The notes under the pieces: model-generated
Told to the model about the DNA's origin: nothing
The model's input: only the letters and a program-made list of their open reading frames with translations
The model's database searches: none
In this document: positions 6,153-46,416 of the stretch, piece by piece
Position numbering within the stretch: the stretch's first letter is position 1
How the letters are laid out: each line of letters opens with the position of its first letter
Source: Thermosynechococcus vestitus BP-1
Lineage (GTDB): Bacteria; Cyanobacteriota; Cyanobacteriia; Thermosynechococcales; Thermosynechococcaceae
Reading direction: 5' to 3'
Assembly (NCBI RefSeq): GCF_000011345.1
Contig: NC_004113.1
Location: forward strand, 682,001 to 746,000
DNA: 64,000 nt
Program-made: the position numbers and the translations under genes

Positions 6153-7322
6153 ATGACAGTGCGTCTTGGTAAATCGGTCACCTACCTCTCGTTCATGGCA
6201 TTGGGGGCAGCCGCTGCAATGTTTGTCACCCACTTGATGCCAGCGTCAACGCCCTTGGTGACCCCCAGCTTGGCACAGTTACCGGCACCGCTGCCAGCGG
6301 GAAATGACACTAACTTTATTGCCCGTGCTGTTGAACAGGTGGGGCCTGCCGTGGTGCGGATTGATGCTTCCCGTACGGTGCAGACCCGTGTGCCAGCTAT
6401 TTTTAATGACCCTTTCTTTCAGGAATTTTTTGGGCCAATGATGCCCCCCCGCAGCCGTGAAGAACGGGGTCTAGGGTCTGGTTTTATCATTAGTAGCGAT
6501 GGCCTGATCCTGACAAATGCCCACGTGGTAGATGGTGCTAACCGGGTGCGAGTAACCCTCAAAGATGGCCGCACCTTTGAGGGTCAGGTGCTTGGTCAAG
6601 ACCGTCTGACTGATGTGGCGGTGGTCAAGGTGAATGCGAGCAATTTACCGGTGGTGCGTCTGGGTAATTCTGATCATTTGCGCCCTGGGGAGTGGGCGAT
6701 CGCCATCGGTAATCCGTTGGGTCTCGATAATACGGTGACCGCAGGCATTATCAGTGCAACCGGACGCTCGAGCGGCGATATTGGTGTGCCTGATAAACGA
6801 GTGGGCTTTATTCAAACCGATGCAGCTATTAACCCCGGTAACTCTGGCGGCCCCCTGTTGAACCAGCGGGGAGAGGTGATTGGCATGAATACTGCGATCA
6901 TTGGCGGTGCCCAGGGCTTGGGATTTGCCATTCCCATCAACACAGCCCAGCGAATTGCCAATCAACTGATTGCCAATGGTCGCGTAGATCACCCCTTCTT
7001 GGGTATTCGCATGACCAATCTTACCCCTGAGGTGCAGCAACGCCTCAACACCAACCCCAATAGTCCTGTGCGCGTGGAGGAAAGTTCGGGTGTGTTGATT
7101 TTTGAAGTGCTACCCAACTCTCCCGCTGCCCGTGCGGGTCTGCAACCTGGAGATGTGATCCGTCGTATCAATGGCCAAACCATCACTAAAGCAGATCAAG
7201 TGCAGCAAATCGTGGAAAGCACAGGCATTGGTCGCACAATGGAACTGGAAGTGCGCCGTCGTGGCCAGACGGTGATCGTGGCTGTCCAGCCGGCTCCCCT
7301 CCCAGCCCAGGCCATTCGCTAA
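6153..7322 (+). CDS. HtrA/Deg-family serine protease with PDZ domain
   Basis: Periplasmic or thylakoid-lumen quality-control protease (HhoA/HhoB/HtrA group in cyanobacteria). From the ATG at 6153 it has 389 residues: a hydrophobic N-terminal signal/anchor (residues about 9-26), a trypsin-like domain with H124 (TNAHVV), D154 (LTDVAVV) and S231 (NPGNSGGPL), and one C-terminal PDZ domain (about 290-385). An upstream TTG at 6108 would add 15 residues before the signal peptide and is less likely. It follows ndhE by about 70 bp on the same strand and is one base from the DUF3326 gene. Which of the cyanobacterial paralogues it is cannot be settled from sequence reading alone. Confidence 0.9.
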
Positions 7323-7323
7323 C

Positions 7324-8337
7324 GTGCTGACGGCAGTTCTGATCATTCCAACGGGCATTGGGGCTGCCATTGGCGGGTATGCAGGGGATGCGATTCCCGT
7401 TGTTCGTGCCTTGGCCCAGGTGTGCGATCGCCTGATTACTCACCCCAACGTTCTGAATGGGGCGATGCTCTATTGGCCACTGCCCAATGTTTGGTATGTC
7501 GAGGGCTATGCCCTTGATGAGTTTGCCGTTGGCCATTGGGGATTGCTGCCACCCCGCCCGAATCGTGTTGGTCTGTTGCTAGATGCCGCGATGGAAGCGG
7601 ATCTCCAACTTCGCCATCGTCAAGCAGCGGCGGCCTGTTCTGCTACCTTGGGTTTAACCATTACTGAACCGGTGATTACCGATGAACCGTTGGGGGTACA
7701 GTTACAAACCGCTGCCTCCGGCACAACATGGGGCACTGTGGCGAACCCCGCCAGTTTATTGCGGTCGGCAGAAAAACTGATTCAAGGGGCTCAGGCGGAG
7801 GCGATCGCGATCGTGACTCGCTTTCCTGATGATCCAGGTACAGAAGCATTGCACCACTACCGTAGTGGCCAAGGCGTCGATCCCCTGGCAGGGGCAGAAG
7901 CAGTCATTAGTCATTTGGTTGTCCAGCACTTTCAAATCCCAGCAGCCCATGCCCCAGCCCTGCAACCATTACCCCTAGAGGAGAGTGTACATCCCCGTGC
8001 CCTTGCCGAAGAAATTGGCTATACCTTTTTACCCTCCGTGCTGGTGGGGTTGAGTCGTGCTCCCCGCTATAGCTTCAGTGCCCCGCAAGCCCTGTGGCGA
8101 CAGGACGTAGATGCAGTGATTGTACCCGCCACTGCACTTGGTGGACGGGGAATCCTGGCTTTTGCTCATCAAGGTATCCCCATCATAACGGTAGCTAACA
8201 ATACCACAACCCTCAATGTTACAGGTGCCGATTTGGGGATAGAAACAATTCCTTGCCAATCCTATGCTGAGGCTATTGGCGTACTGAGTGCGATGAAGGC
8301 GGGAGTCTCTTGGCAAACAGTTGTCACAGCAACCTAA
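7324..8337 (+). CDS. DUF3326 family protein
   Basis: 337 residues, conserved in cyanobacteria and plastids, function not known to me. It begins with a GTG one base after the protease stop codon, so it is translated from the same message. The N-terminus (PTGIGAAIGGYAGDAIP) and a later block VIVPATALGGRGILAFAHQGIPIITVANN are glycine-rich and look like a nucleotide- or sugar-binding fold, but that is only an impression. Its stop codon at 8335-8337 lies directly at the point where homology to the downstream DUF2887 array begins, so its own 3' flank was replaced by the truncated array copy. Confidence 0.75.
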   Translation: MLTAVLIIPTGIGAAIGGYAGDAIPVVRALAQVCDRLITHPNVLNGAMLYWPLPNVWYVEGYALDEFAVGHWGLLPPRPNRVGLLLDAAMEADLQLRHRQAAAACSATLGLTITEPVITDEPLGVQLQTAASGTTWGTVANPASLLRSAEKLIQGAQAEAIAIVTRFPDDPGTEALHHYRSGQGVDPLAGAEAVISHLVVQHFQIPAAHAPALQPLPLEESVHPRALAEEIGYTFLPSVLVGLSRAPRYSFSAPQALWRQDVDAVIVPATALGGRGILAFAHQGIPIITVANNTTTLNVTGADLGIETIPCQSYAEAIGVLSAMKAGVSWQTVVTAT

Positions 8338-8810
8338 AGTTGCCATTGAGCCTGGCCCTGATGCCGCTCACGGTGTTATCCGCAGCAGAGATGCCGAGAG
8401 TGGCGAGGTTATTGGCTGAGCGCACTCACACAGAGGCGGTGCCAAGGCCAGAAGTCATAATAGAGTTAATCACGACGATTGTGCTGTACAAGTTCACGGA
8501 GCTGAGTCGGGAGGAGGTGTTGCGGATGCTGGGGTTTACCACTGAGGAATTGAAGCGGACACGGTTTTATCGGGAGGTGTATGCGGAGGCACGGGAGGAA
8601 GGATTACAAGAAGGACTGGAGCAGGGATTACAGCAGGGAGAAGCACTTGTGATTTTGCGCCTGCTGAGGCGGCGATTTGGGAGTGTGCCTAGTGAGCTGG
8701 AGGAGCGGATTCAGCAGCTCTCTGCTCCTCAGATTGAGGCTTTGGCGGAAGCGCTGCTTGACTTCAGGGAGCTGGAGGAAGTGGCAGCATGGCTAGAGCA
8801 GACCTCCTAA
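8338..8810 (+). pseudogene. 5'-truncated copy 1 of the DUF2887/DUF4351 array
   Basis: Homology to the four full copies downstream starts abruptly at about 8340, just after the DUF3326 stop, at the equivalent of residue 132 of the full protein (LPLSLALM). The N-terminal nuclease-like domain is missing. What remains encodes the middle helical part, three tetrapeptide units (LQEG, LEQG, LQQG) and the C-terminal DUF4351-like part ending in WLEQTS. A frame is open from a TTG at 8310 inside the upstream gene, or an internal ATG at 8361 could start a short protein. The 7-bp spacer to copy 2 matches those between the full copies, so this is the remnant of a fifth unit. Confidence 0.8.
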
Positions 8811-8817
8811 CTCACCC

Positions 8818-9747
8818 ATGCGCCGCGACTCTCTCTTTTATCAACTCTTTGCCCAACTACCCCAGACCCTCTTTGACCTCTTGGGCATAGACACCCCTGA
8901 GGGGTATCGTTTTGACTCAGTTGAGCTGAAGCAAACCGCCTTTCGCATCGATGGCGTCTTTGTGCCCCCTGACCCTGCAGGCACGGTTTATTTCTGTGAG
9001 GTGCAGTTTCAGCGGGATAACACTTTCTATGAACGCTTCTTTGCGGAGATTTTTCTCTATCTGCGCCTGTATCGCTCCACCTTTGCAGATTGGCAAGCGG
9101 TGGTGATTTATCCGAATCGGCAAACGGAGCAAGAGTCTTTTGCCCCCTATGACCTGTTGGTCCATAGTCCCCGCCTGCGGCGAGTGTATCTGAATGAGTT
9201 GGGGTCACCAGAGAGCTTGCCATTGAGCCTGGCCCTGATGCAGCTTACGGCGTTATCCGCAGCAGAGATGCCCACAGTGGCGAGGTTACTAGCTGAGCGC
9301 ACTCACACAGAGGCGGTGCCAAGGCCAGAAGTCATAATAGAGTTAATTACGACGATTGTGCTGTACAAGTTCACGGAGCTGAGTCGGGAGGAGGTGTTGC
9401 GGATGCTGGGGTTTACCACTGAGGAACTGAAGCGGACACGATTTTATCGGGAGGTGTATGCGGAGGCACGGGAGGAAGGATTACAAGAAGGACTGGAGCA
9501 GGGATTACAACAGGGACTGCAACAAGGACTGGAGCAGGGATTACAGCAGGGATTACAGCAGGGATTACAGCAGGGAGAAGCACTTGTGATTTTGCGCCTG
9601 CTGAGGCGGCGATTTGGGAGTGTGCCTAGTGAGCTGGAGGAGCGGATTCAGCAGCTCTCTGCTCCTCAGATTGAGGCTTTGGCGGAGGCGCTGCTTGACT
9701 TCAGGGAGCTGGGGGAAGTAGCAGCATGGCTAGAGCAGACTTCCTAA
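8818..9747 (+). CDS. DUF2887/DUF4351 protein, array copy 2 (Rpn-like PD-(D/E)XK nuclease fold)
   Basis: 309 residues. N-terminal DUF2887 domain (1-130) with D45-G46 and E61-V-Q63, which fit the D...ExQ/K core of PD-(D/E)XK nuclease-fold proteins in the Rpn/PDDEXK-transposase-like group. A helical middle (to about 220) is followed by eight GLQQG-type tetrapeptide units and a DUF4351-like C-terminus (RRFGSVPSELEERIQQLS...). Known relatives promote recombination or act as putative transposase-like nucleases; DNA cleavage here is inference. No Shine-Dalgarno sequence is evident; the ATG follows the previous stop by 7 bp, which suggests translational coupling. Confidence 0.8.
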   Translation: MRRDSLFYQLFAQLPQTLFDLLGIDTPEGYRFDSVELKQTAFRIDGVFVPPDPAGTVYFCEVQFQRDNTFYERFFAEIFLYLRLYRSTFADWQAVVIYPNRQTEQESFAPYDLLVHSPRLRRVYLNELGSPESLPLSLALMQLTALSAAEMPTVARLLAERTHTEAVPRPEVIIELITTIVLYKFTELSREEVLRMLGFTTEELKRTRFYREVYAEAREEGLQEGLEQGLQQGLQQGLEQGLQQGLQQGLQQGEALVILRLLRRRFGSVPSELEERIQQLSAPQIEALAEALLDFRELGEVAAWLEQTS

Positions 9748-9754
9748 CTCACCC

Positions 9755-10660
9755 ATGCGCCGCGACTCCCTCTTCTATCAACTCTTTGCTCAGCTACCCC
9801 AGACCCTCTTTGACCTCTTGGGCATAGACACCCCTGAGGGGTATCGTTTTGACTCAGTTGAGCTGAAGCAAACCGCCTTTCGCATCGATGGCGTCTTTGT
9901 GCCCCCTGACCCTGCAGGCACGGTTTATTTCTGTGAGGTGCAGTTTCAGCGGGATAACACCTTCTATGAACGCTTCTTTGCGGAGATTTTTCTCTATCTG
10001 CGCCTGTATCGCTCCACCTTTGCAGATTGGCAAGCGGTGGTGATTTATCCGAATCGGCAAACGGAGCAAGAGTCTTTTGCTCCCTATGACCTGTTGGTCC
10101 ATAGTCCCCGCCTGCGGCGAGTGTATCTGAATGAGTTGGGGTCACCAGAGAGCTTGCCATTGAGCCTGGCCCTGATGCAGCTTACGGCATTATCCGCAGC
10201 AGAGATGCCGAGAGTGGCGAGGTTACTGGCTGAGCGCACTCAAACAGAGGCGGTGCCAAGGCCAGAAGTCATAATAGAGTTAATCACGACGATTGTGCTG
10301 TACAAGTTCACGGAGCTGAGTCGGGAGGAGGTGTTGCGGATGCTGGGGTTTACCACTGAGGAACTGAAGCGGACACGATTTTATCGGGAGGTGTATGCGG
10401 AGGCACGGGAGGAAGGGTTACAAGAGGGGCGACTGGCGGGAAGACAAGAAGGACTTCAGGAAGGCTTGCAGCAGGGATTACAGCAGGGAGAAGCACTTGT
10501 GATTTTGCGCCTGCTGAGGCGGCGATTTGGGAGTGTGCCTAGCGAGCTGGAGGAGCGGATTCGGCGGCTCTCTGTTTCACAGATTGAAGCTTTGGCGGAG
10601 GCGCTGCTTGACTTCAGGGAGCTGGGGGAAGTGGCAGCATGGCTAGAGCAGACTTCTTAA
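9755..10660 (+). CDS. DUF2887/DUF4351 protein, array copy 3
   Basis: 301 residues, nearly identical to copy 2 over the first 200 residues, including D45 and E61-V-Q63. The repeat segment differs: six tetrapeptide units, among them RLAG and RQEG that the other copies lack, so it is the most divergent minisatellite of the set. The C-terminus reads IRRLSVSQ where copy 2 has IQQLSAPQ, a pattern also seen in copies 4 and 5, pointing to gene conversion or stepwise duplication. Start ATG 7 bp after the preceding stop (spacer CTCACCC). Confidence 0.8.
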   Translation: MRRDSLFYQLFAQLPQTLFDLLGIDTPEGYRFDSVELKQTAFRIDGVFVPPDPAGTVYFCEVQFQRDNTFYERFFAEIFLYLRLYRSTFADWQAVVIYPNRQTEQESFAPYDLLVHSPRLRRVYLNELGSPESLPLSLALMQLTALSAAEMPRVARLLAERTQTEAVPRPEVIIELITTIVLYKFTELSREEVLRMLGFTTEELKRTRFYREVYAEAREEGLQEGRLAGRQEGLQEGLQQGLQQGEALVILRLLRRRFGSVPSELEERIRRLSVSQIEALAEALLDFRELGEVAAWLEQTS

Positions 10661-10667
10661 CTAACCC

Positions 10668-11561
10668 ATGCGCCGCGACTCTCTCTTTTATCAACTCTTT
10701 GCCCAGCTACCCCAGACCCTCTTTGACCTCTTGGGCATAGACACCCCTGAGGGGTATCGCTTTGACTCAGTTGAGCTGAAGCAAACCGCCTTCCGCATCG
10801 ATGGCGTCTTTGTCCCCCCTGACCCTGCAGGCACGGTTTATTTCTGTGAGGTGCAGTTTCAGCGGGATAACACCTTCTATGAACGCTTCTTTGCGGAGAT
10901 TTTTCTGTATCTACGCCTGTATCGCTCCACCTTTGCAGATTGGCAAGCGGTGGTGATTTATCCGAATCGGCAAACGGAGCAAGAGTCTTTTGCTCCCTAT
11001 GATCTGTTGGTCCATAGTCCCCGCCTGCGGCGAGTGTATCTGAATGAGTTGGGGTCGCCAGAGAGGTTGCCATTGAGCCTGGCCCTAATGCAGCTTACGG
11101 CGTTATCCGCAGCAGAGATGCCGAGAGTGGCGAGGTTACTGGCTGAGCGCACTCACACAGAGGCGGTGCCAAGGCCAGAAGTCATAATAGAGTTAATCAC
11201 GACGATTGTGCTGTATAAGTTCACGGAGCTGAGTCGGGAGGAGGTGTTGCGGATGCTGGGGTTTACCACTGAGGAACTGAAGCGGACACGGTTTTATCGG
11301 GAGGTGTATGCGGAGGCACGGGAGGAAGGATTACACGAAGGATTGCAACAGGGACTGCAACAAGGACTGGAGCAGGGATTACAGCAGGGAGAAGCACTTG
11401 TGATTTTGCGCCAGTTAAGGCGGCGATTTGGGAGTGTGCCTAGTGAGCTGGAGGAGCAAATCTGGCGGCTCTCTGTTTCACAGATTGAGGCTTTGGCGGA
11501 GGCGCTGCTTGACTTCAGGGAGCTGGAGGAAGTGGCAGCATGGCTAGAGCAGACTTCCTAA
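10668..11561 (+). CDS. DUF2887/DUF4351 protein, array copy 4
   Basis: 297 residues, same domain order as copies 2 and 3, with D45 and E61-V-Q63 present. Five tetrapeptide units, the first being LHEG instead of LQEG (shared with copy 5 only). The C-terminus has ILRQLRRRFG where copies 1-3 have ILRLLRRRFG, again shared with copy 5, so copies 4 and 5 are closest to each other in the 3' half. Spacer before it is CTAACCC. Confidence 0.8.
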   Translation: MRRDSLFYQLFAQLPQTLFDLLGIDTPEGYRFDSVELKQTAFRIDGVFVPPDPAGTVYFCEVQFQRDNTFYERFFAEIFLYLRLYRSTFADWQAVVIYPNRQTEQESFAPYDLLVHSPRLRRVYLNELGSPERLPLSLALMQLTALSAAEMPRVARLLAERTHTEAVPRPEVIIELITTIVLYKFTELSREEVLRMLGFTTEELKRTRFYREVYAEAREEGLHEGLQQGLQQGLEQGLQQGEALVILRQLRRRFGSVPSELEEQIWRLSVSQIEALAEALLDFRELEEVAAWLEQTS

Positions 11562-11568
11562 CTCACCC

Positions 11569-12522
11569 ATGCGCCGCGACTCTCTCTTTTATCAACTCTT
11601 TGCCCTCTTGGGCATAGACACCCCTGAGGGGTATCGTTTTGACTCAGTTGAGCTGAAGCAAACCGCCTTTCGCATCGATGGCGTCTTTGTGCCCCCTGAC
11701 CCTGCAGGCACGGTTTATTTCTGTGAGGTGCAGTTTCAGCGGGATAACACCTTCTATGAACGCTTCTTTGCGGAGATTTTTCTCTATCTGCGCCTGTATC
11801 GCTCCACCTTTGCAGATTGGCAAGCGGTGGTGATTTATCCGAATCGGCAAACGGAGCAAGAGTCTTTTGCTCCCTATGACCTGTTGGTCCATAGTCCCCG
11901 CCTGCGGCGAGTGTATCTGAATGAGTTGGGGTCACCGGACAACTTGCCATTGAGCCTGGCCCTGATGCAGCTTACGGTGTTATCCGAAGCAGAGATGCCC
12001 ACAGTGGCAAGGTTACTGGCTGAGCGCACTCACACAGAGGCGGTGCCAAGGCCAGAAGTCATAATAGAGTTAATCACGACGATTGTGCTGTACAAGTTCA
12101 CGGAGCTGAGTCGGGAGGAGGTGTTGCGGATGCTGGGGTTTACCACTGAGGAACTGAAGCGGACACGATTTTATCGGGAGGTGTATGCGGAGGCACGGGA
12201 GGAAGGATTACACGAAGGATTGCAACAGGGATTGCAACAAGGATTACAGCAGGGATTACAGCAAGGAAGACAACAGGGATTGCAACAGGGACTGCAACAA
12301 GGACTGGAGCAGGGACTGCAACAAGGATTACAGCAGGGATTACAGCAGGGAGAAGCACTTGTGATTTTGCGGCAGTTAAGGCGGCGATTTGGGAGTGTGC
12401 CTAGTGAGCTGGAGGAGCGAATCTGGCGGCTCTCTGTTTCACAGATTGAGGCTTTGGCGGAAGCGTTGCTTGACTTCAGGGAGCTGGAGGAAGTGGCAGC
12501 ATGGCTAGGGCGCTTTGCTTGA
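11569..12522 (+). CDS. DUF2887/DUF4351 protein, array copy 5 (last copy, altered N- and C-terminus)
   Basis: 317 residues. It lacks eight residues near the N-terminus (after FA, residues 13-20 of the other copies) through a 24-bp deletion between the imperfect repeats CTCTTTGCCC and CTCTTTGACC, a slippage signature. The minisatellite is the longest of all: twelve tetrapeptide units. The final residues are LGRFA instead of LEQTS, so the 3' end of the array was joined to other DNA here or retains the ancestral terminus. Loss of the first helix may affect folding; the putative active-site residues remain. Confidence 0.78.
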   Translation: MRRDSLFYQLFALLGIDTPEGYRFDSVELKQTAFRIDGVFVPPDPAGTVYFCEVQFQRDNTFYERFFAEIFLYLRLYRSTFADWQAVVIYPNRQTEQESFAPYDLLVHSPRLRRVYLNELGSPDNLPLSLALMQLTVLSEAEMPTVARLLAERTHTEAVPRPEVIIELITTIVLYKFTELSREEVLRMLGFTTEELKRTRFYREVYAEAREEGLHEGLQQGLQQGLQQGLQQGRQQGLQQGLQQGLEQGLQQGLQQGLQQGEALVILRQLRRRFGSVPSELEERIWRLSVSQIEALAEALLDFRELEEVAAWLGRFA

Positions 12523-12821
12523 GTGGTGCTGCGGGTCAGGGGGGAAGGGGTCTTGGTCGGGTGACGGTGGTGGCATAGAGGTTAAAAGTTTAAGTGGTAT
12601 TGCTATTGCTTAATTAAGCTTAATTAAGAAGTGTTGCTATTGCTGAACTAGTGGCAATCATCTGCAGGGGTTGGGAAATTTTTCGGGAATGTTGCTGCGA
12701 GATGAAATTTTTTATTAAGGGAAAACCATACTAAGTTTATGGAGCCTGTGGGGTGTGGATACCCTAAGGTGTGGCTTGCGGATGGCAGGTTGGCTTTCTG
12801 GTGCGTTGATTAGGTGCGGCT
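12523..12821. promoter_or_regulatory. spacer with 20-bp palindrome upstream of the hpsA-like operon
   Basis: The spacer holds a perfect 20-bp palindrome at 12609-12628 that is also a tandem repeat of the 10-bp palindrome CTTAATTAAG. It is bracketed by direct repeats TGCTATTGCT at 12601-12610 and 12635-12644. AT-rich sequence follows to about 12740. The position between the array and the hpsA-like gene makes it a candidate operator for that operon, but no regulator is known to me for this motif. Confidence 0.45.
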
Positions 12822-15800
12822 ATGAAAGAGCATTATCGCTCCCTTGGACTTTCGAAGCGACAGTATCGCAAACTGATGCGGTCTATCCGTCATCTGTTTT
12901 TCCAGTTACAGCGGTGGGTGCGGCGGCGGCTGGCACCCCTAGGACTGCAACAACGGCGACAGGGACGGTTGCGCTGGGGGCGAGCAGGGTTTGTGCTGCC
13001 AACGGTGGTGATTGTCTTGGTGGTGGTGACGCTGACGGTGGCGGCTTTGATGATCCGCACGCTGAACCGCACTGCTGAGGTGAGTGGTCAACGTCAAGAA
13101 ATTCAAGTGATGAATGCGACGGCACCGGCCATTGACCGGGCGCGGGCCAAGTTGGAGTATTTCTTTACGCAAGACCCTTTGCGGCCCAATGGCGTACCAG
13201 GGGAAGATGTGATTAACCAAATTATTGGGAACCAAGGGAGTGCGGCGCGCGATCCTGATCCTTACACCTTGGCGGATGAGCAACGCATTGACTTCGATGG
13301 GGACGGCAACCTAGATAATGCCTGGGCCTTTCAACCCACGCCAACTTCCATTGTGGCCTACTCGATTTTGATGAAACGGCCCAATGATACGCAGCTTAAC
13401 CAGAGTGACGCCGACAAAGCAAGGCAGCTCATTACCCGCAGTCGGCCCATGGGGATTACGGAACTGGGGAATCAGTGTGGGGACGTGGGCAATCTTGCCG
13501 GCCAACAAACGGAGGTCGGCTGGGATGAGGTGACCAGTGCCATTCTGCGGAAGAACTTTCAGATCAATGCCTTTGTTTATGAAAACCGCAACGGCGGTCA
13601 AGCCCTCTCGACGGTTGAGTTTGTGCAAGAGCGGCAAATGGAGCGGGGCAATAAGTGGGGGGCGTGGTTCCGTAATGACTTGGAGATTTTCCCGGGGCCA
13701 GACTTTCGCTGGAATGGGGCGATGCACACAGAAGGCAGCATTTTCATGACCAGTGGCAATGGTTTTACTGCTTACCTTGTGAGCTCGCCAAAATCCTGCA
13801 TTTACACGCGATCGGCCTCAGAAATCACGGCAACGGAGGTGGTGGACAGCAACACGGGCCAAACGCTCTTCCAAGGGCAGTTTGTAGCTGGGAGCCTGCG
13901 GGATAACAACACCAATGCGCCAAATGTACAGATTCACTCCTACAGCGAACCTCCGAGTGCTCCTTACACCACCGGTGATGCCGATCCACCGGCGCAAAAC
14001 GTTAAACTGACCGACAAACGAGACTCGGTGAAAGATGGCATAGAGCCTGCTATGGTTGCTCTGAACCCAGTGGCTATCTTAACTGAGGATCGGAGCAAGG
14101 CTCGCGGCAGTGACCCGACGAATTTGAGCGTGCGGGATGAGAACTGGCCTCTACAGTTTTATGTGCAACAGGGGCGCTTTGCCAATAAGACCCAGCCCAA
14201 GCCCTACGTGGATGACACCTACCGCGCTGATGATCGCTACGGACCAAAGCCGGTTTATGACACCACGATTCCCTCCTCTGACCCAAGGAAGCAAATTCCT
14301 GTTGGTAAGAAAGTGGGCGACCCAATTGATGGCACCGTCCCAGGGGCTAGGGACCTGCTGACCCGCAACGTGGCTCCACCGGGCAGCCCAAACAAACGGG
14401 AAGACTTAGGACTGGATGGCTATTGGGAGCGGCGAGCCCGCCAAGAAGGCTTGCGGATTATCGTCGGGGAACGTTTGGAACTGGGTAAACCCCTGGATCC
14501 ACCAGAAGGAAACCCAGCCGATTCTAGTCGCCGCAATGAATTCTATCAGCATCGCACCCTGCGGGACGACCTTGCGGCTGTGCAAGCAGCAGTTGTTTAT
14601 CACTACAAAGCGCGGGGGACAACCATTGACCCCTCCATTCCCGATCCCTTTACCACTCCCTATCCGGGGCAAAATGAAGGGGGCTATGAGCCTGTGGCCT
14701 GCTTGGCCGCCACCTACCACCACGGGACGCCGCAAACCGCCCTGCGGAGCATCATGTTCAACCAGTACAACGGCGTTTCAGGCTTGGGCCAATTCTTTGA
14801 TTTCTTTACGGGGCGGGGCACCAATGGCTGGGAGTTTGAACCGCCTGACTTTAACAGCCAAGACATGCGGAACGCCCTACAAAATCTTGCGAACGCATAC
14901 GGCGATCCCCAGGGCGCTTTCCCACCAACACAGGGAACCACGGTTCACCCTGACCCAACCACAACCAAGGCGGGGAACTTCTCCAATCTGAGGCGTGCCA
15001 TGGAAGCGTGGGAGAACGCAGGCTGGAACCTCAGAGCCCTTAGCCTTGCGGATCAGAGCACCATCCACACCGCTGGCTGCGCCCTAGGAATGCTCGCCTA
15101 TAGCGTGCATAAGCTGCAAACACTCAGTCTGCCTGGGGCTCTTGGGACGACGCTGGACAACCAGATTAACATTCTCAGGACTACTGGTGGTACTAGTACT
15201 ACTGGTCCTCAAGTGCAGATAGACGGACAACGAGTAGACCAAAGCCCACCACCATACCCACCAGGGACAACAAGTGGGGTTGTCACAGTCATTCGCAATG
15301 GTTTCCCTTCTAGTCGTCCCCTTTCCTATCGCGGGGGCTATCTGGATGCCAATGCCTACATCACTGCCCTGATCTCTGACACTAGCTGGGGTCAGCGACC
15401 GCTCCAAGAGACTAGTGCCGACGTTAATGCTCGCCTTGCGCGGCTAATTGCCCTCAGGGAGCAAGTTGTGCATGACCTGAATCCCGGTGGGTACCAATGT
15501 TCCATTACCGATAATTATCCCAATTTAAAGAAGGCTTTTTGCCTAGACGAGCAATCATCAAACCCTTCACAGCTTTCGAAGCGGGGCTTTGTGCTTGGTC
15601 AGGACTTCCTGATGCCTAGCCGCGGTGGGGACACTCCTTATCTAAGGGTTGAGGATGCCCCCAGCTATAACTTTGACCTGGATCCTAATCGAGATAGAGA
15701 TAAGTATGTCTATGTAAGTGGCGCAGGACTAATGCAGTTGACACGCATTACAACAGATGAGCAAGGCAAAATACTCACCGTAAAACTGAAAAACGTGGGT

Positions 15801-17930
15801 GCTTCATATAATGCGCCACAGAACAGACAGATTCCAGCAGGTGCCTCCGCTTCCCTTTTGACTGAGACAGGTCAAATTAATGTTGCCGTTGGATTTCCAA
15901 ATAATCCAATTGTGAATAGTACTACTGTAGATATCAACTACACAGGGCTAAGCCAACCCCTCCAGGTGGGAGATATTATCGAGATTCGCCGTCCTCCTAC
16001 TGGGGTTGGAGTCCTTGGTCGGGTAGAAGGGGTCTTTGAGGTGGTGCCGAGCACAAGCACACTACCACTACCACCAAACACAGCCAGAGTACGTTACATT
16101 GGTGGCACAGAACGCAGTGGTTCTGGCAGTGCCAATATTGCTGTAGGCTCCGAAGTGGTTGTCCTTTGGCGGAAGAACAGTTCCCCTGGTCCTCTGGGGA
16201 CATTCAATACCGTCATCAAATATCCTGCCCTGCAGCGTATCTTTAATGGTGTGACTCCAGACAGGATTGTGGCTACACCACGACCCAACACTAGCGCTTT
16301 CCTCACCCCCACTGAGACTGCCACTGGCAACACTAGCGGCTTTCCCAACCGCCTGAATCAAATCATTGACTTTAATGGCAACGCCGTCAATGTTGCCTTC
16401 CTCGATAACGCCCTCTTTAATGGCCGTGAAGAGATGGTGGTGCGGGAAATGGATATTGACCTAGACCTGTTGCGGCGCAAGACCATTGGCGGGGATACGT
16501 GGCTGCCGATGGGGGGCATTGTCTATGCCTTCCGTGAAGACGCCGTGCGGGAGGATGGCATTGCCCGTCCGGCGGTCAGTGGTCAAAACTGGATGAATAC
16601 AGATCCCAACAGTCCCCACGATCCCCCCTTGGCTGCTAACGGGATTTCGACCAAGCCGGTGGACTTCTTTGCCGATCCCATGCGGCGCCCCAATGGCTTC
16701 CGCCTCTGGAATGGGGCACGCCTTGACCGCGAAGGGATTCCCGACGACAAAAATATTGCTGGTTTGTCCTTTATCAGTGATAACCCCGTTTATATTCAGG
16801 GGGACTTTAACCTGCACAGTAGCGATGGCACAACTAGCAACCTCATTGAGGAGTTTACAGACAAACTGGCAGATGACTGGAGCAACTTCTACGATCGCAG
16901 CAAGCTAGATCCTCGCTTTGCGCGTCCGAAGGAAGATAAGTGGCGACCCACAGAAATTCTGGCGGATGCGGTCACGATTCTCTCCAGTAACTTCTGCAAT
17001 GGGTCTGCCAATGACTACTTTGCTGAAGCCTACAATAATACTGTTCGAGCTTTGAACAACTCCCCAGAAAATCTGGCCACTAATTTTCCCGACAATACAG
17101 GAGCGGATGCGCGGGTCGACAACAGTAATCGCATTTATCCTACCTGCGCGGGTATTGCCAAACTGCGCACCTCTTTCCTGAATGCCAACCGCCCCAGCGC
17201 TGATCTCCCCAACGATACAGTTTGGCTGCGGGAAAGCCCCTTTGACCCCAGCTCACCGATTTATGTGGATCGCAATGGCACCCCCTGGGCCATCAACTAT
17301 ACGACTGGTGAGCGGGTGGATCGCAATGGTACACGGTTGACCCAGTATCCCGGTGGCAACGGAGCAGACCCGAGCCCGAACAACCCCTACAATGCTTATT
17401 ACAGTTTTGACGACGCTCGTGCCCGAAATACAGCGCAAGAGACCCGCGTCAATGCCGTGATCGTGAGTGGCACCGTGCCCTCGCGGCGTACCCAATCCTA
17501 TGGGGGGATGCACAACTTCCCGCGGTTCCTGGAGGCCTGGGGAACCCTCCGGATTCAGGGTTCCTTTATTCAACTGAACTTCTCGACCCAAGCCACGGCC
17601 CCCTTCGACCAAGACCAGTGGGAAATTCCCAACGACCCTAGCTGCCAAAATGTCAATACGGCCTTTAACTGCTCGGCCAAGACTTGGGAGCGGATTCAGT
17701 ACTACGGTGCTCCCCAACGCCGCTGGGGCTACGATGTGGCTCTGCAACTGGCACCCGCAGGACCCGTTGCACGGCGGTTTATTACCCCAGGGCGGCAGCG
17801 CACAGAGTACTACACTGAACTGCGGGCCGATGACCCCTATATCCTGCGGCTGCGCTGTGCCAGGCGACCTGCGGGCATGGGCGGGGGCAGGATTGATCCG
17901 AATCTTGACGATGCCCAGTGCGATGCCTAA
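12822..17930 (+). CDS. HpsA-like giant pilus-associated protein
   Basis: 1702 residues. After a basic N-terminus it has a single membrane segment (about 57-79) preceded by AGFVLPT, which resembles a type IV prepilin/PilX N-terminus but lacks Glu5. The rest is a long, polar, presumably extracytoplasmic region with few cysteines. An Asp-rich loop DFDGDGNLD near residues 157-165 looks like a calcium-binding repeat loop. Length, N-terminus and the downstream pseudopilin genes match HpsA, described in filamentous cyanobacteria for hormogonium polysaccharide and motility. In a unicellular organism the role is probably a pilus-associated adhesin or minor-pilin complex component (inference). First gene of a five-gene same-strand cluster. 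Confidence 0.72.
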   Translation: MKEHYRSLGLSKRQYRKLMRSIRHLFFQLQRWVRRRLAPLGLQQRRQGRLRWGRAGFVLPTVVIVLVVVTLTVAALMIRTLNRTAEVSGQRQEIQVMNATAPAIDRARAKLEYFFTQDPLRPNGVPGEDVINQIIGNQGSAARDPDPYTLADEQRIDFDGDGNLDNAWAFQPTPTSIVAYSILMKRPNDTQLNQSDADKARQLITRSRPMGITELGNQCGDVGNLAGQQTEVGWDEVTSAILRKNFQINAFVYENRNGGQALSTVEFVQERQMERGNKWGAWFRNDLEIFPGPDFRWNGAMHTEGSIFMTSGNGFTAYLVSSPKSCIYTRSASEITATEVVDSNTGQTLFQGQFVAGSLRDNNTNAPNVQIHSYSEPPSAPYTTGDADPPAQNVKLTDKRDSVKDGIEPAMVALNPVAILTEDRSKARGSDPTNLSVRDENWPLQFYVQQGRFANKTQPKPYVDDTYRADDRYGPKPVYDTTIPSSDPRKQIPVGKKVGDPIDGTVPGARDLLTRNVAPPGSPNKREDLGLDGYWERRARQEGLRIIVGERLELGKPLDPPEGNPADSSRRNEFYQHRTLRDDLAAVQAAVVYHYKARGTTIDPSIPDPFTTPYPGQNEGGYEPVACLAATYHHGTPQTALRSIMFNQYNGVSGLGQFFDFFTGRGTNGWEFEPPDFNSQDMRNALQNLANAYGDPQGAFPPTQGTTVHPDPTTTKAGNFSNLRRAMEAWENAGWNLRALSLADQSTIHTAGCALGMLAYSVHKLQTLSLPGALGTTLDNQINILRTTGGTSTTGPQVQIDGQRVDQSPPPYPPGTTSGVVTVIRNGFPSSRPLSYRGGYLDANAYITALISDTSWGQRPLQETSADVNARLARLIALREQVVHDLNPGGYQCSITDNYPNLKKAFCLDEQSSNPSQLSKRGFVLGQDFLMPSRGGDTPYLRVEDAPSYNFDLDPNRDRDKYVYVSGAGLMQLTRITTDEQGKILTVKLKNVGASYNAPQNRQIPAGASASLLTETGQINVAVGFPNNPIVNSTTVDINYTGLSQPLQVGDIIEIRRPPTGVGVLGRVEGVFEVVPSTSTLPLPPNTARVRYIGGTERSGSGSANIAVGSEVVVLWRKNSSPGPLGTFNTVIKYPALQRIFNGVTPDRIVATPRPNTSAFLTPTETATGNTSGFPNRLNQIIDFNGNAVNVAFLDNALFNGREEMVVREMDIDLDLLRRKTIGGDTWLPMGGIVYAFREDAVREDGIARPAVSGQNWMNTDPNSPHDPPLAANGISTKPVDFFADPMRRPNGFRLWNGARLDREGIPDDKNIAGLSFISDNPVYIQGDFNLHSSDGTTSNLIEEFTDKLADDWSNFYDRSKLDPRFARPKEDKWRPTEILADAVTILSSNFCNGSANDYFAEAYNNTVRALNNSPENLATNFPDNTGADARVDNSNRIYPTCAGIAKLRTSFLNANRPSADLPNDTVWLRESPFDPSSPIYVDRNGTPWAINYTTGERVDRNGTRLTQYPGGNGADPSPNNPYNAYYSFDDARARNTAQETRVNAVIVSGTVPSRRTQSYGGMHNFPRFLEAWGTLRIQGSFIQLNFSTQATAPFDQDQWEIPNDPSCQNVNTAFNCSAKTWERIQYYGAPQRRWGYDVALQLAPAGPVARRFITPGRQRTEYYTELRADDPYILRLRCARRPAGMGGGRIDPNLDDAQCDA

Positions 17931-19747: not shown

Positions 19748-20362
19748 ATGGAACGCCGCCAGCGGGGATATACGATGACAGAGGTGTTGGTGGTGATCGT
19801 TGTGATCGCCATTGTGGTGGGGATTGGCACAATGAGCCTGTTTCCACTGCTGCAACGGCAACGGGTACGGGCGGCAGCCAATAATGCCCGCAATGTGCTG
19901 CGCCTGGCGCAGGCCACTGCTAAAAAACAAAAGCTGCCTTGGATTGCTGCCTTTCGCAATACCGACTTGGGGCCGCAGTGGTCGATTAATCCTGTGGGGA
20001 GCGATCGGGAGCGGTGGCAATGGCAGCCCCTGGTGGACGATGATGAGCAACTGGTAATGGTGATGTGGGGGACGGATTTTTACTCCCCTCTGACCAATGA
20101 GGACAATCAACACTCCCCTCTGACCAATGAGGACAATCAACGCTTAGAATGCTGGCAACCGGCAGCACAGGCATCGCCAATGCAGCAATGTGAGCTGGCC
20201 TTTGACTACCAAGGGCGGGTGATTACACCGGTGACGCCGCGGCGCATTAGCTTTAGCATCTATGCCTATGAGAGTGCTTACCTGCAATGTGTGCGGGTGT
20301 CGACGATTCTCGGGGGTATGCGCATTGAGGAGGGCAAGAGCTGCGGTGAGTATCGAGAGTAA
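19748..20362 (+). CDS. prepilin-type protein (GspH/FimT-like)
   Basis: About 204 residues from the ATG at 19748; GGGAGG is about 9 bp upstream, so I prefer this to the ATG at 19739 that touches it. Prepilin site RGYTMTEVLVVIVVIAIVVG with Glu5, followed by RARAA-type helix (RVRAAANNARNVLRLAQATAKKQ) as in GspH/FimT minor pseudopilins. The protein carries an exact 10-residue tandem duplication (SPLTNEDNQH) caused by a 30-bp DNA duplication at 20082-20141. The gene follows hpsC-like by about 18 bp and is part of the same operon. Confidence 0.75.
   Translation: MERRQRGYTMTEVLVVIVVIAIVVGIGTMSLFPLLQRQRVRAAANNARNVLRLAQATAKKQKLPWIAAFRNTDLGPQWSINPVGSDRERWQWQPLVDDDEQLVMVMWGTDFYSPLTNEDNQHSPLTNEDNQRLECWQPAAQASPMQQCELAFDYQGRVITPVTPRRISFSIYAYESAYLQCVRVSTILGGMRIEEGKSCGEYRE
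20082..20141 (+). repeat. exact 30-bp tandem duplication inside a pseudopilin gene
   Basis: Two identical 30-bp copies, 20082-20111 and 20112-20141, both beginning ACTCCCCTCTGACC. The duplication is in frame and doubles ten residues. Perfect identity suggests a recent slippage event. Confidence 0.9.
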
Positions 20363-24532: not shown

Positions 24533-24740
24533 TTGACATCCTCCCCCCGCTAAAGCAGGGAGATTCCCAAAATCACTTTTGGGACTTTCTGCTTCTTCGC
24601 AGTTGCCCTCCAGACGTATGTCTATCAGGTCTTACACCCGCTCCACAGACTGTAACCGTGTGTCCCACGGCCAAAATATTCCGAGCGGCATTTATATCCC
24701 GATCATGGTGCGCCCCACACTTAGGACAGTCCCATTCTCG
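24533..24740 (-). ncRNA. probable omega/re-RNA at the right end of the tnpB element
   Basis: In studied IS605 elements the guide RNA scaffold overlaps the 3' end of tnpB and ends exactly at the element boundary, with the guide read from the adjoining host DNA. Here the equivalent place is the minus-strand segment ending at 24533, with a hairpin (CTCCC/GGGAG around GCTTTAGC) near the end and the sequence GGATGTCAA at the boundary. The guide would then be host sequence running down from 24532 (CTGGCGAACTTG...), i.e. the transpeptidase gene. The upstream limit is a guess; no transcript evidence is available. Confidence 0.45.
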
Positions 24741-25754
24741 GACGCTCAATGGCAACCGCTCAACAATGTGACCACACTGTCCACAGCGTTTAGAACTGGG
24801 AAACCATCGGTCAATCTTCACCAGTGTCCGACCATACCACTGGGCCTTGTATTCCAATTGCCGTACCAGTTCACCCCATCCAGCATCACTGATGGATCGG
24901 GCAAGCTGACGGTTCTTGACCATATTCTTCACAGCCAACGACTCGATTATGATCGTTTGGTTTTCACGTATCAATCGAGTCGTCAACTGGTGCAAATGGT
25001 CTTTTCTGGAATCAGAGATTTTCTGGTGAATCTTGGCAACTTTCAACCGCGCCTTATCCCAATTGCGAGAGCCTTTTTGTTTGCGACTCAAAGACCGCTG
25101 CGCCTTACGGAGTCGTTTGTAGTAGCGGTTAAAGTGCTTGGGGTTGGCAATCTTTTCCCCTGTACTCAGGGTAATGAGGCTGCTCATCCCTACGTCCAAA
25201 CCAACCGACGGGTCGACGGGCTGCAGTTTCAACTCTCTGGGGTCATCAAACCTCAGACTGATGTACCACTGTCCAGCAGGGTTAAGCCTGATGGTCACCG
25301 TGGATGGTTCAACACCATCTGGAAGCCGTCTCGACCAGCGAATATTCAGCGGTTCGTTGCACTTTGCCAAGAATACTTTTCCGTCTTTCCACCTAAAAGC
25401 AGACTTGGTGAATTCTGCGCTGCCACCATTGCGTTTCTTTTTGAAGTTGGGATATTTTGCCCGACCTGCAAAGAAGTTACTGAAAGCAGATTGCAGATGT
25501 CTCAATGCCTGCTGCAAGGGGACAGAGCTAACCTCATTCAAAAACTGAAGGTCATCTTGCTTCTTCCACTGAGTAAGCAAGGCAGAGGTTTGAACGTAGT
25601 CAAGTCTCTCTTTTCGTTCATACCAGGCTTCTGTTCTCACTGCCAGTGCTCGATTATAAACCAACCGAACACAGCCCAATGTTCTCCGAAGCAGGGATTC
25701 TTGCTCGGTCGTTGGGTAGAAGCGGTAACTGAAAGCCTTTTGCATGCCTCGCAT
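24573..25754 (-). CDS. tnpB: TnpB, RNA-guided endonuclease of an IS605-type element
   Basis: About 393 residues from the ATG at 25754 (MRGMQKAFSYRFYPT); an ATG at 25745 is equally plausible, the one at 25799 is not. N-terminal wedge/helix-turn-helix part, then a RuvC-like nuclease with D187 (VGLDVGM), E271 (IIIESLAVKNM) and D353 (HDRDINAARNIL), and a zinc-binding CGQCGH...CPKCG (C324, C327, C343, C346). All catalytic residues are present, so the protein should be active. Members of the family are cleaved-DNA effectors guided by a transposon-end RNA. The guide RNA would come from the 3' end of this gene and the adjoining element end. Confidence 0.92.
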   Translation of the reverse strand: MRGMQKAFSYRFYPTTEQESLLRRTLGCVRLVYNRALAVRTEAWYERKERLDYVQTSALLTQWKKQDDLQFLNEVSSVPLQQALRHLQSAFSNFFAGRAKYPNFKKKRNGGSAEFTKSAFRWKDGKVFLAKCNEPLNIRWSRRLPDGVEPSTVTIRLNPAGQWYISLRFDDPRELKLQPVDPSVGLDVGMSSLITLSTGEKIANPKHFNRYYKRLRKAQRSLSRKQKGSRNWDKARLKVAKIHQKISDSRKDHLHQLTTRLIRENQTIIIESLAVKNMVKNRQLARSISDAGWGELVRQLEYKAQWYGRTLVKIDRWFPSSKRCGQCGHIVERLPLSVREWDCPKCGAHHDRDINAARNILAVGHTVTVCGAGVRPDRHTSGGQLRRSRKSQK

Positions 25755-26106
25755 TATAGCGATTATTCTGTGAGTAACACAACTATACTTGGCAGTCACA
25801 GACTGCCGCTCCTATCCCTCCCCTCCCTAAAGGAGGGGGTCTCTCGGAGGTAAAGATGATTCGCGATCCCGCTTGGAAAAATCCCTTTACGGGGGCAGTG
25901 ATTGCCGGCGGCCATCCCCAAAACCCCTTGGGACGGCGTTGGATTGGCTTTTGGAGCGATGGCACCAATTGGGTTGGCTTGCATGGTACCCCCAATCCTG
26001 ATTCCATTGGTCATGCGGTTTCCCACGGGTGCGTGCGCATGTACAACCGCGACATTGAAGAGCTTTTTGAGAAGGTGCAACTTGGAGTGCCCGTGATTGT
26101 GGTGCC

Positions 26107-45067: not shown

Positions 45068-46416
45068 GATCGCCGTCGGCCATCGGGCATAATCGTGCCC
45101 CGCAAATCCACTTCACTCAGATTGGCACCACTCATATCCGCAGCAGTCAGGTTGGCTCGCGTCAAATCGGCTCGCGACAGGTTAGAGCCTGAGAGGTTAG
45201 CATCCCCTAAGTCTGCCCCACTCAAGTTAACACCGCTGAGATCTACGGTTCCCAGGAAGGTGCCGCTAAAGGTTGCCCGGCTCAGGTTGGCTCCCACCAA
45301 GCGGGCGCGGCTCAGGTTTGCTTCGGAGAGGGTCGCCCGACTCAGGTTGGCTCCCACCAAGCGGGCGCGGCTGAGATTGGCTTCTACCAAGTCAGCACGG
45401 CTAAAGTTAGCTTCCGTTAACTCCACCTCGCGGAGATTGGCACCGCTGAGATTAGCCCCCCGCAACTTCACCCCATTAAAGACTAGGCCACTGAGATTGG
45501 CACTGCGTAGATCCGTTTGACTCAAATCCGCATGATCCAGCAATGCCCCCTGCAAATTTGCCCCTTCGAGATTCGCTCCCCGCAGATTGGTGCCCACCAG
45601 TTTGGCATGGCTGAGGTTGGCGCCCCGCAAATTTGCCCCACTGAGATCCGCACGGCTCAGGTTGGTATGACTCAGGTTCGCGCCACTAAGATTGGCACCA
45701 CTGAGGTTGACATCCGATAGCTCTAGGGACGACAAATCCGCCTTTGCCAGTTCGGCGCCGACAAGGTTGGCCTGAGCAAGGTTGGCTGCGGTGAGCTTGA
45801 CTTCCGTGAGATCAACGCGACTGAGATTGGCACCGGTAAGATTTGCCGCTGTTAAATTAGCACCACTCAGATTGGCACCGCTGAGGTTCGCGCCACTGAG
45901 ATTGGCATTGCTAACATCGGCCTGAATTAAATCCACACGGGTCAGGTTTGCCTGCTTTAGCTCTGTTCCATGTAAATTGGCGCCCTGTAAATTTGCTCCT
46001 GAAAGGTTAACGCCGTCCAGGGGCAATCCCCGCAGATCCGCATTGGCTAAATCCACACGGGAAAGGTTTGCCCCCTGAAGGACTGTTCCCCGCAGTGTAG
46101 TTTCACTCAATTCAGCGCGGCTGAGATTAGCTCGTGTCAGGTTTGCCCAACTAAGATCGCTACGACTCAAGTTTGCGCCAGCGAGGTTGGCATCCACCAA
46201 TTCTGCTTTGATGAGCATGGCATTGATGATTTCTGCGCCACACAGCACGGCGCCACTGAGATTTGCACCGCTCAGGTTGACCCACTCCATGTCGGCACGG
46301 GAGAGAATAATCCCCCGTAGATCAGCGTTGATAAACTCGCCATTTGTCAAACTGGCACGGTTAAAGTCCCGTTCACCGCTGGCGTAGCGCTTTAACAACT
46401 CTTGGGGATTCATCAA
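45064..46416 (-). CDS. pentapeptide-repeat protein (450 residues)
   Basis: Almost the whole protein after residue 20 is made of A(D/N)LXX repeats (for example ANLSGANLSGANL), roughly 80 units, which fold as a right-handed quadrilateral beta helix. There is no signal peptide and no second domain. The N-terminus MMNPQELLKRYASGERDFNRASL is the usual cap of cyanobacterial members. Function unknown; DNA-mimic (gyrase-protecting) and scaffold roles are known for relatives but cannot be assigned here. DNA repeats in the gene follow from the protein repeats. Confidence 0.9.
   Translation of the reverse strand: MMNPQELLKRYASGERDFNRASLTNGEFINADLRGIILSRADMEWVNLSGANLSGAVLCGAEIINAMLIKAELVDANLAGANLSRSDLSWANLTRANLSRAELSETTLRGTVLQGANLSRVDLANADLRGLPLDGVNLSGANLQGANLHGTELKQANLTRVDLIQADVSNANLSGANLSGANLSGANLTAANLTGANLSRVDLTEVKLTAANLAQANLVGAELAKADLSSLELSDVNLSGANLSGANLSHTNLSRADLSGANLRGANLSHAKLVGTNLRGANLEGANLQGALLDHADLSQTDLRSANLSGLVFNGVKLRGANLSGANLREVELTEANFSRADLVEANLSRARLVGANLSRATLSEANLSRARLVGANLSRATFSGTFLGTVDLSGVNLSGADLGDANLSGSNLSRADLTRANLTAADMSGANLSEVDLRGTIMPDGRRRS

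Follow-up and report, generated by a model that had tools for sequence, protein, structure and literature searches.

A tandem array of Rpn-family nuclease genes with conserved internal start signals in Thermosynechococcus vestitus BP-1, probably a set of gene-within-gene toxin-antitoxin units

We analysed a 64,000-nucleotide (nt) stretch of the Thermosynechococcus vestitus BP-1 genome (NC_004113.1, positions 682,001 to 746,000 of the forward strand), here called the window, with coordinates counted from its first letter. Between a DUF3326 gene and an HpsA-like gene it carries a tandem array of DUF2887/DUF4351 genes. One 5'-truncated and four complete copies lie head to tail, every spacer is 7 bp, and the best aligned blocks of direct-repeat families reported by the repeat finder span all five copies at 93-100% identity. 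The truncated copy is missing about the first 135 codons and begins at 8340, 2 nt past the DUF3326 stop codon (8337). The Rpn genes of E. coli, with which we compare the array, encode a toxic full-length nuclease, RpnL, and a C-terminal antitoxin, RpnS, made from an internal promoter and start (PMC10327210).

8340-8810, + strand: copy 1, 5'-truncated, without the nuclease domain; has the internal start, 3 repeat units and DUF4351; stand-alone RpnS-like
8818-9747, + strand: copy 2, RpnL-like; DUF2887, 8 units and DUF4351; 309 amino acids
9755-10660, + strand: copy 3, RpnL-like; 6 units; 301 amino acids
10668-11561, + strand: copy 4, RpnL-like; 5 units; 297 amino acids; the protein used for folding
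11569-12522, + strand: copy 5, RpnL-like; 12 units; 317 amino acids; divergent last residues WLGRFA
7324-8337, + strand: DUF3326 gene, left anchor, kept at this locus (locus 1) across the genus
12822-17930, + strand: HpsA-like gene, right anchor, bordering locus 1

The repeat units are LxxG motifs following '...EAREEG', encoded by a 12-bp minisatellite:

8604-8639, + strand: minisatellite of copy 1, 3 units
9481-9576, + strand: minisatellite of copy 2, 8 units
10418-10489, + strand: minisatellite of copy 3, 6 units
11331-11390, + strand: minisatellite of copy 4, 5 units
12208-12351, + strand: minisatellite of copy 5, 12 units

Copy 5 has also lost 24 bp at 11604/11605 (residues QLPQTLFD), and this deletion and the unit counts together explain all the length differences among the full copies. 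An earlier note on this DNA had described the same layout, the same source of length variation and a nearly identical N-terminal domain; our coordinates and unit counts agree with it, and dN (nonsynonymous divergence) of the N-domain within the array is at most 0.013. About 0.88 Mb from here the genome (G000) carries another such array, with two copies (G000:C1:1568244-1570029, locus 2). A decayed fragment of the family with two stop codons (L040, G000:C1:1895081-1895188) is a relic at a third genome site.

The full copies match DUF2887 (PF11103, E about 1e-63 to 1e-70) and DUF4351 (PF14261, E about 1e-21). The Rpn model TIGR01784 is matched with E 4e-23, copies 2 and 5 scoring 82.6 and 75.9 bits where the cut-off is 52.1. 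Five residues, D4, D45, E61, Q63 and R73, are invariant in 39 cyanobacterial homologues and align in order, with the same E-x-Q and Q-to-R spacings, with D11, D63, E82, Q84 and R94 of E. coli RpnA. Those are the proposed catalytic residues of RpnA, and mutating D11, D63, E82 or Q84 (to K) abolishes all three of its phenotypes (PMC5350276). In an AlphaFold2 model of copy 4 (predicted local distance difference test score 86), the best structural matches of the N-domain (residues 1-129) are PD-(D/E)XK nucleases, led by NucS/EndoMS (Z 9.6 and 9.3), with McrC, BamHI and Can2 among the others; the top Z of 9.6 covers residues 3-126. Foldseek alone, run with the full protein, gave no match with E < 0.001, the nuclease fold appearing in a second-look structural alignment, and sequence searches of the PDB found no relative. 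The ratio dN/dS between species (dS being synonymous divergence) is about 0.10 for the N-domain and 0.16 for the C-terminal part, indicating purifying selection. The proteins belong to the Rpn nuclease family with a PD-(D/E)XK-like N-domain, in support of the nuclease-type fold proposed in the earlier note, and nuclease activity is predicted.

Inside every copy, in frame with the rest of the gene, is a second start signal. All copies in the window have GGGAGGAGGT-N7-ATG, with a Shine-Dalgarno sequence (SD), AGGAGG, separated from the ATG by 8 nt, and the frame from this ATG to the stop codon is a predicted RpnS:

8526-8810, + strand: predicted RpnS frame of copy 1, 94 amino acids
9403-9747, + strand: predicted internal RpnS frame of copy 2, 114 amino acids; ATG invariant in homologues
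10340-10660, + strand: predicted internal RpnS frame of copy 3, 106 amino acids
11253-11561, + strand: predicted internal RpnS frame of copy 4, 102 amino acids
12130-12522, + strand: predicted internal RpnS frame of copy 5, 130 amino acids
8512-8517, + strand: internal SD AGGAGG, copy 1
9389-9394, + strand: internal SD AGGAGG, copy 2
10326-10331, + strand: internal SD AGGAGG, copy 3
11239-11244, + strand: internal SD AGGAGG, copy 4
12116-12121, + strand: internal SD AGGAGG, copy 5

We compared this start in two sets of homologues, 78 distant cyanobacterial genes and an unselected set of 72 picked by the DUF2887 model alone. The internal methionine is invariant in both (78/78 and 72/72). The glutamate codon that forms the SD (codon -4) is GAG in 76 of the 78 genes, where 22 would be expected from the codon usage of the same genes, and the glutamate two codons later is mostly GAA. 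Among representatives below 70% identity, 21 of 22 have GAG at this position (6.9 expected). In the unselected set GGAGG or AGGAG stands at the right distance in 58 of 72 genes, compared with 5.7 (maximum 13) in synonymous-codon shuffles that preserve the protein and the codon usage, and any four-base SD is present in all 72, compared with 19.8 (maximum 31). This is strong evidence that the internal start signal is selected at synonymous sites across cyanobacteria; by analogy with E. coli, RpnS would be translated from it. In Thermosynechococcus an SD precedes the internal start in 36 of 36 genes and the main start in none of 36, an arrangement that would favour RpnS over RpnL, with a leaderless or coupled main start possible. 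A divergent DUF4351-bearing subfamily, about 30% identical (L069-L072, from G001 and G009), has GGAGG directly before its internal ATGs (CGG GAG GGA ATG ATG), upstream of the repeat tract.

Each copy also has the -10-like hexamer CATAAT upstream of the SD:

8456-8461, + strand: CATAAT, copy 1, 64 nt before its internal ATG
9333-9338, + strand: CATAAT, copy 2
10270-10275, + strand: CATAAT, copy 3
11183-11188, + strand: CATAAT, copy 4
12060-12065, + strand: CATAAT, copy 5

Its end lies exactly 64 nt upstream of the internal ATG in 53 of the 78 genes (3.1 expected), and in Thermosynechococcus in 31 of 36 (2.4 expected). With moderate confidence we regard CATAAT as a candidate internal promoter. 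We rejected the idea that a longer motif, AGTCGCGCCATAATAGA, is an operator shared by the whole family: six genomes that carry up to 12 or more DUF2887 genes contain its core TCGCGCCATAATAGA just 0-2 times.

The repeat tract follows the internal start. It is predicted to be helical, and in the model of copy 4 it is part of one long helix (residues 208-254) joining the nuclease-like and C-terminal domains. The RpnS model consists of a long helix and three short helices, and RpnS in the RpnAS crystal structure 7TH0 is a three-helix fold. The earlier note saw it as a spacer between these domains. The position of a helical repeat between them stands, but the C-terminal part is very probably also a separate protein, RpnS, and the tract is therefore more likely to set toxin-antitoxin pairing than spacing alone. 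In E. coli the number of 4-residue repeats in RpnS decides which RpnL it neutralises (PMC10327210). Across the arrays compared the count spans 1 to 19, and within the arrays of G000 and G008 the numbers are all different. At locus 2 of G008 (L056:3621-4754) one repeat tract is in a shifted frame (AGRITRGKTRGTRRRTSGRLAAGITTGIATRLTTRIT...) and the original frame is regained before DUF4351; two compensating indels preserved the frame of the tail and swapped out the LQQG helix sequence.

The comparison of loci covers species, not strains of one species. Locus 1 has the order HtrA, DUF3326, array, HpsA. Besides nuclease-less head copies it holds 4 genes in G000, 1 in G003, 6 in G008, 9 in G004, 3 in G007 (the first without about 20 initial residues) and 3 in G002. 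Locus 2 has 2 copies in G000, 1 each in G003, G008 and G007, and 4 in G004. The G004 genome has a tandem duplication of a two-gene block. The earlier note had proposed a dynamic array, against which identical copy and unit numbers everywhere would have argued; both numbers differ between species at the same syntenic locus. The main arrays occupy one constant pair of loci throughout the genus, with a few single or broken copies elsewhere. The DUF2887/DUF4351 family is present in 69 of 244 sampled cyanobacterial genomes, often in several copies, and tandem neighbours are seen in distant cyanobacteria too (for example G103, G242, G105 and G220). No relatives were found in phage records or viral contigs, a phage-borne decoy antitoxin being unseen at this sensitivity. 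One contig of a metagenome-assembled genome (L075, G005 contig 71) runs from the left flank of locus 2 through a DUF2887 gene into the right flank of locus 1 (HpsA); this reflects either a misassembly caused by the repeats or a rearrangement that involved both arrays.

The truncated head copy is not peculiar to BP-1. It meets the DUF3326 stop codon at the identical base in G000, G003 and G008, and G004 is truncated differently at this position. The SD, the ATG, 3 units and DUF4351 are retained in all four, and CATAAT has been lost from that of G004. Between G000 and G003 the RpnS-only copies have dN 0.085 and dS 0.36, an apparent constraint that gene conversion with full copies could cause. 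In E. coli some RpnS are separate genes annotated as DUF4351, and arrays arise through tandem duplication (PMC10327210). The truncated copies fit a retained stand-alone antitoxin of this type, although the independent events are few. All nuclease-less or N-truncated heads of locus 1 (G000, G003, G008, G004 and G007; window 8604-8639, L065, L055, L057 and L061) have exactly 3 units, compared with 1-19 in full genes; only two or three independent truncations lie behind them.

The two halves of the genes have different histories. In a tree of the nuclease half, copies cluster by genome with loci 1 and 2 mixed. A tree of the sequence downstream of the repeats groups the copies of G000, G003 and G008 by locus, the exception being G000b_1, which has a tail from locus 1. 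Taking the last gene of each locus, paralogues within a genome are 98-100% identical in the N-domain and 69-73% in the tail; orthologues are 93-97% and 86-95% identical. The copies at the two loci of G003, which are 620 kb apart, agree in all of their first 720 nt and begin to diverge in the minisatellite. Gene conversion thus maintains a uniform toxin half within a genome and halts at the repeats, leaving the tail locus-specific. Either the repeats themselves stop it, or selection on the tail acts against longer tracts. We found this mosaic of uniform toxin and private tail unreported in the open-access literature searched and in the main text of PMC10327210 (supplement aside).

The array is of the Rpn gene-within-gene kind already known, in an unstudied cyanobacterial branch and with an unusual evolutionary pattern. 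We put the probability that its copies are tandem toxin-antitoxin units like the RpnL/RpnS of Zhong et al. 2023 at nearly four in five (about 0.78). The family, the conserved active site, the conserved internal start signals, the variation in copies and units and the mosaic evolution are read from the sequences; that RpnS is translated, that RpnL is toxic and RpnS neutralises it, that pairing depends on unit number and that the system defends against phage we infer from Zhong et al. 2023. The full gene would give the RpnL toxin, in which a PD-(D/E)XK nuclease is followed by a helical repeat and a DUF4351 tail, and the internal promoter-like element, SD and ATG would give the C-terminal 94-130 amino acids alone as the RpnS antitoxin. 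Pairing of RpnS with RpnL, by way of the repeat helix and the tail, would restrain the nuclease until a trigger, probably phage infection, releases it. The count of 4-residue units would set the fit, making the copies with 8, 6, 5 and 12 units largely private pairs, and copy 1 would be an RpnS-only gene. Copies may be gained and lost through recombination between direct repeats, with gene conversion within the genome keeping the toxin half uniform as repeat number and tail diverge.

Several observations weigh against this picture. The neighbouring genes are mostly housekeeping genes and form no defence island. The crystal structure of RpnAS, 7TH0, is absent from the sequence and fold matches, including a fold search with the RpnS model. 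The repeats begin 26 residues past the internal methionine, compared with 8-20 in Zhong et al. CATAAT is confined to this subfamily (7 of 72 in the unselected sample) and a -35 box sought upstream of it was not found, which makes the promoter reading weaker than that of the SD and ATG. Unit numbers within arrays are not significantly more distinct than chance over all arrays (P 0.37), the value becoming 0.047 once one recently block-duplicated array is omitted.

The earlier note suggested, as one possibility, a self-amplifying or recombination-promoting element. In this reading the nuclease would cut DNA and so multiply its own gene and minisatellite. Overexpression of RpnA does increase RecA-independent recombination (PMC5350276), Zhong et al. 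leave open that RpnL aids the multiplication of repeats and copies (PMC10327210), and copy and unit numbers vary strongly. However, the arrays sit at the same two loci throughout the genus, between the same genes, there are no inverted pairs of at least 40 nt in window 7000-14000, and direct repeats of 93-100% identity suffice for RecA-dependent unequal exchange. As such an element would also leave the conserved internal SD and ATG unexplained, we think it very unlikely, and a self-amplifying or mobile element is not supported. A transposon or insertion sequence was rejected for want of terminal inverted repeats (at least 40 nt, same interval) and of shifting insertion sites of the main arrays.

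The two remaining explanations do without a second product or without a function for the system. If the genes encoded only a length-variable oligomeric nuclease in which the repeat merely spaces the domains, the single long helix predicted between them would be accounted for, but there would be no reason for synonymous-site conservation of the SD and CATAAT before an invariant internal ATG, nor for truncated copies that retain exactly the internal cistron; this we consider highly improbable. A neutral array of paralogues, made by tandem duplication and gene conversion, with repeat length drifting by slippage and no role at the level of a system, would agree with truncated and decayed copies and with unit numbers that are not clearly over-dispersed within arrays. 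It is very improbable given a dN/dS of about 0.1 between species, frames open in nearly all copies, the conserved active site and the mosaic of a homogenised toxin half with a locus-specific tail.

If the toxin-antitoxin reading is right, it places the large cyanobacterial DUF2887/DUF4351 family, a name found in no paper of the open-access literature searched as far as DUF2887 is concerned, with the Rpn systems. The synonymous-site evidence, which is independent of the E. coli experiments, indicates that the gene-within-gene arrangement is ancient and maintained by selection. Natural copies with 3, 5, 6, 8 and 12 units, with a near-identical nuclease domain, form a series for the question of pairing by unit number. 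It is possible, though on balance we are doubtful, that the whole of a further proposal holds: the minisatellite would be a built-in recombination boundary, at which conversion between distant loci, having replaced the toxin half, stops. The nuclease would then stay uniform, with antitoxin tails private to each locus and repeat lengths private to each copy, and the array would be a standing repertoire of non-cross-reacting pairs with the RpnS-only head gene as a further regulator.

Elsewhere in the window, 30/60-bp tandem repeats (GGCTCCCACCAAGCGGGCG...) at 45271-45391 perhaps belong to a gene for a pentapeptide-type repeat protein, and a 30-bp unit at 20082-20141 is perfectly duplicated in tandem in or beside an open reading frame. 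A TnpB/OrfB transposase gene (24573-25799, - strand; IS605-type, Cas12f-like domain) was the sole match to a defence library among 10 nearby genes scanned.

The closest known systems are RpnL/RpnS (COG5464; E. coli RpnA-E and RpnP2; PMC10327210), which share with the array the five active-site residues of a PD-(D/E)XK N-domain, an internal start for the C-terminal part, 4-residue repeats of variable number within the first helix of the C-terminal part, RpnS genes that stand alone, and tandem arrangement. The internal promoter of the E. coli genes has a candidate counterpart here in CATAAT. In the cyanobacterial genes, however, the nuclease domain is of the PF11103 (DUF2887) type rather than PF04754, the predicted RpnS is longer (94-130 amino acids), and there are two fixed syntenic loci instead of scattered insertions; the text of PMC10327210 does not describe a toxin half that is homogenised as far as a switch point in the repeats. 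E. coli RpnA (YhgA; Kingston et al. 2017, PMC5350276) has the equivalent active-site residues, D11/D63/E82/Q84/R94 for D4/D45/E61/Q63/R73, but is a single gene with a different C-terminal sequence, and its DNA cleavage has been measured where that of the array proteins is predicted from sequence. In the HsdS subunit of EcoR124I/II (TAEL units, cited by Zhong et al.) the count of 4-residue units in a helix likewise alters specificity. There it is the gap in the DNA site of a type I restriction enzyme that changes; here it would be the pairing of one protein with another.

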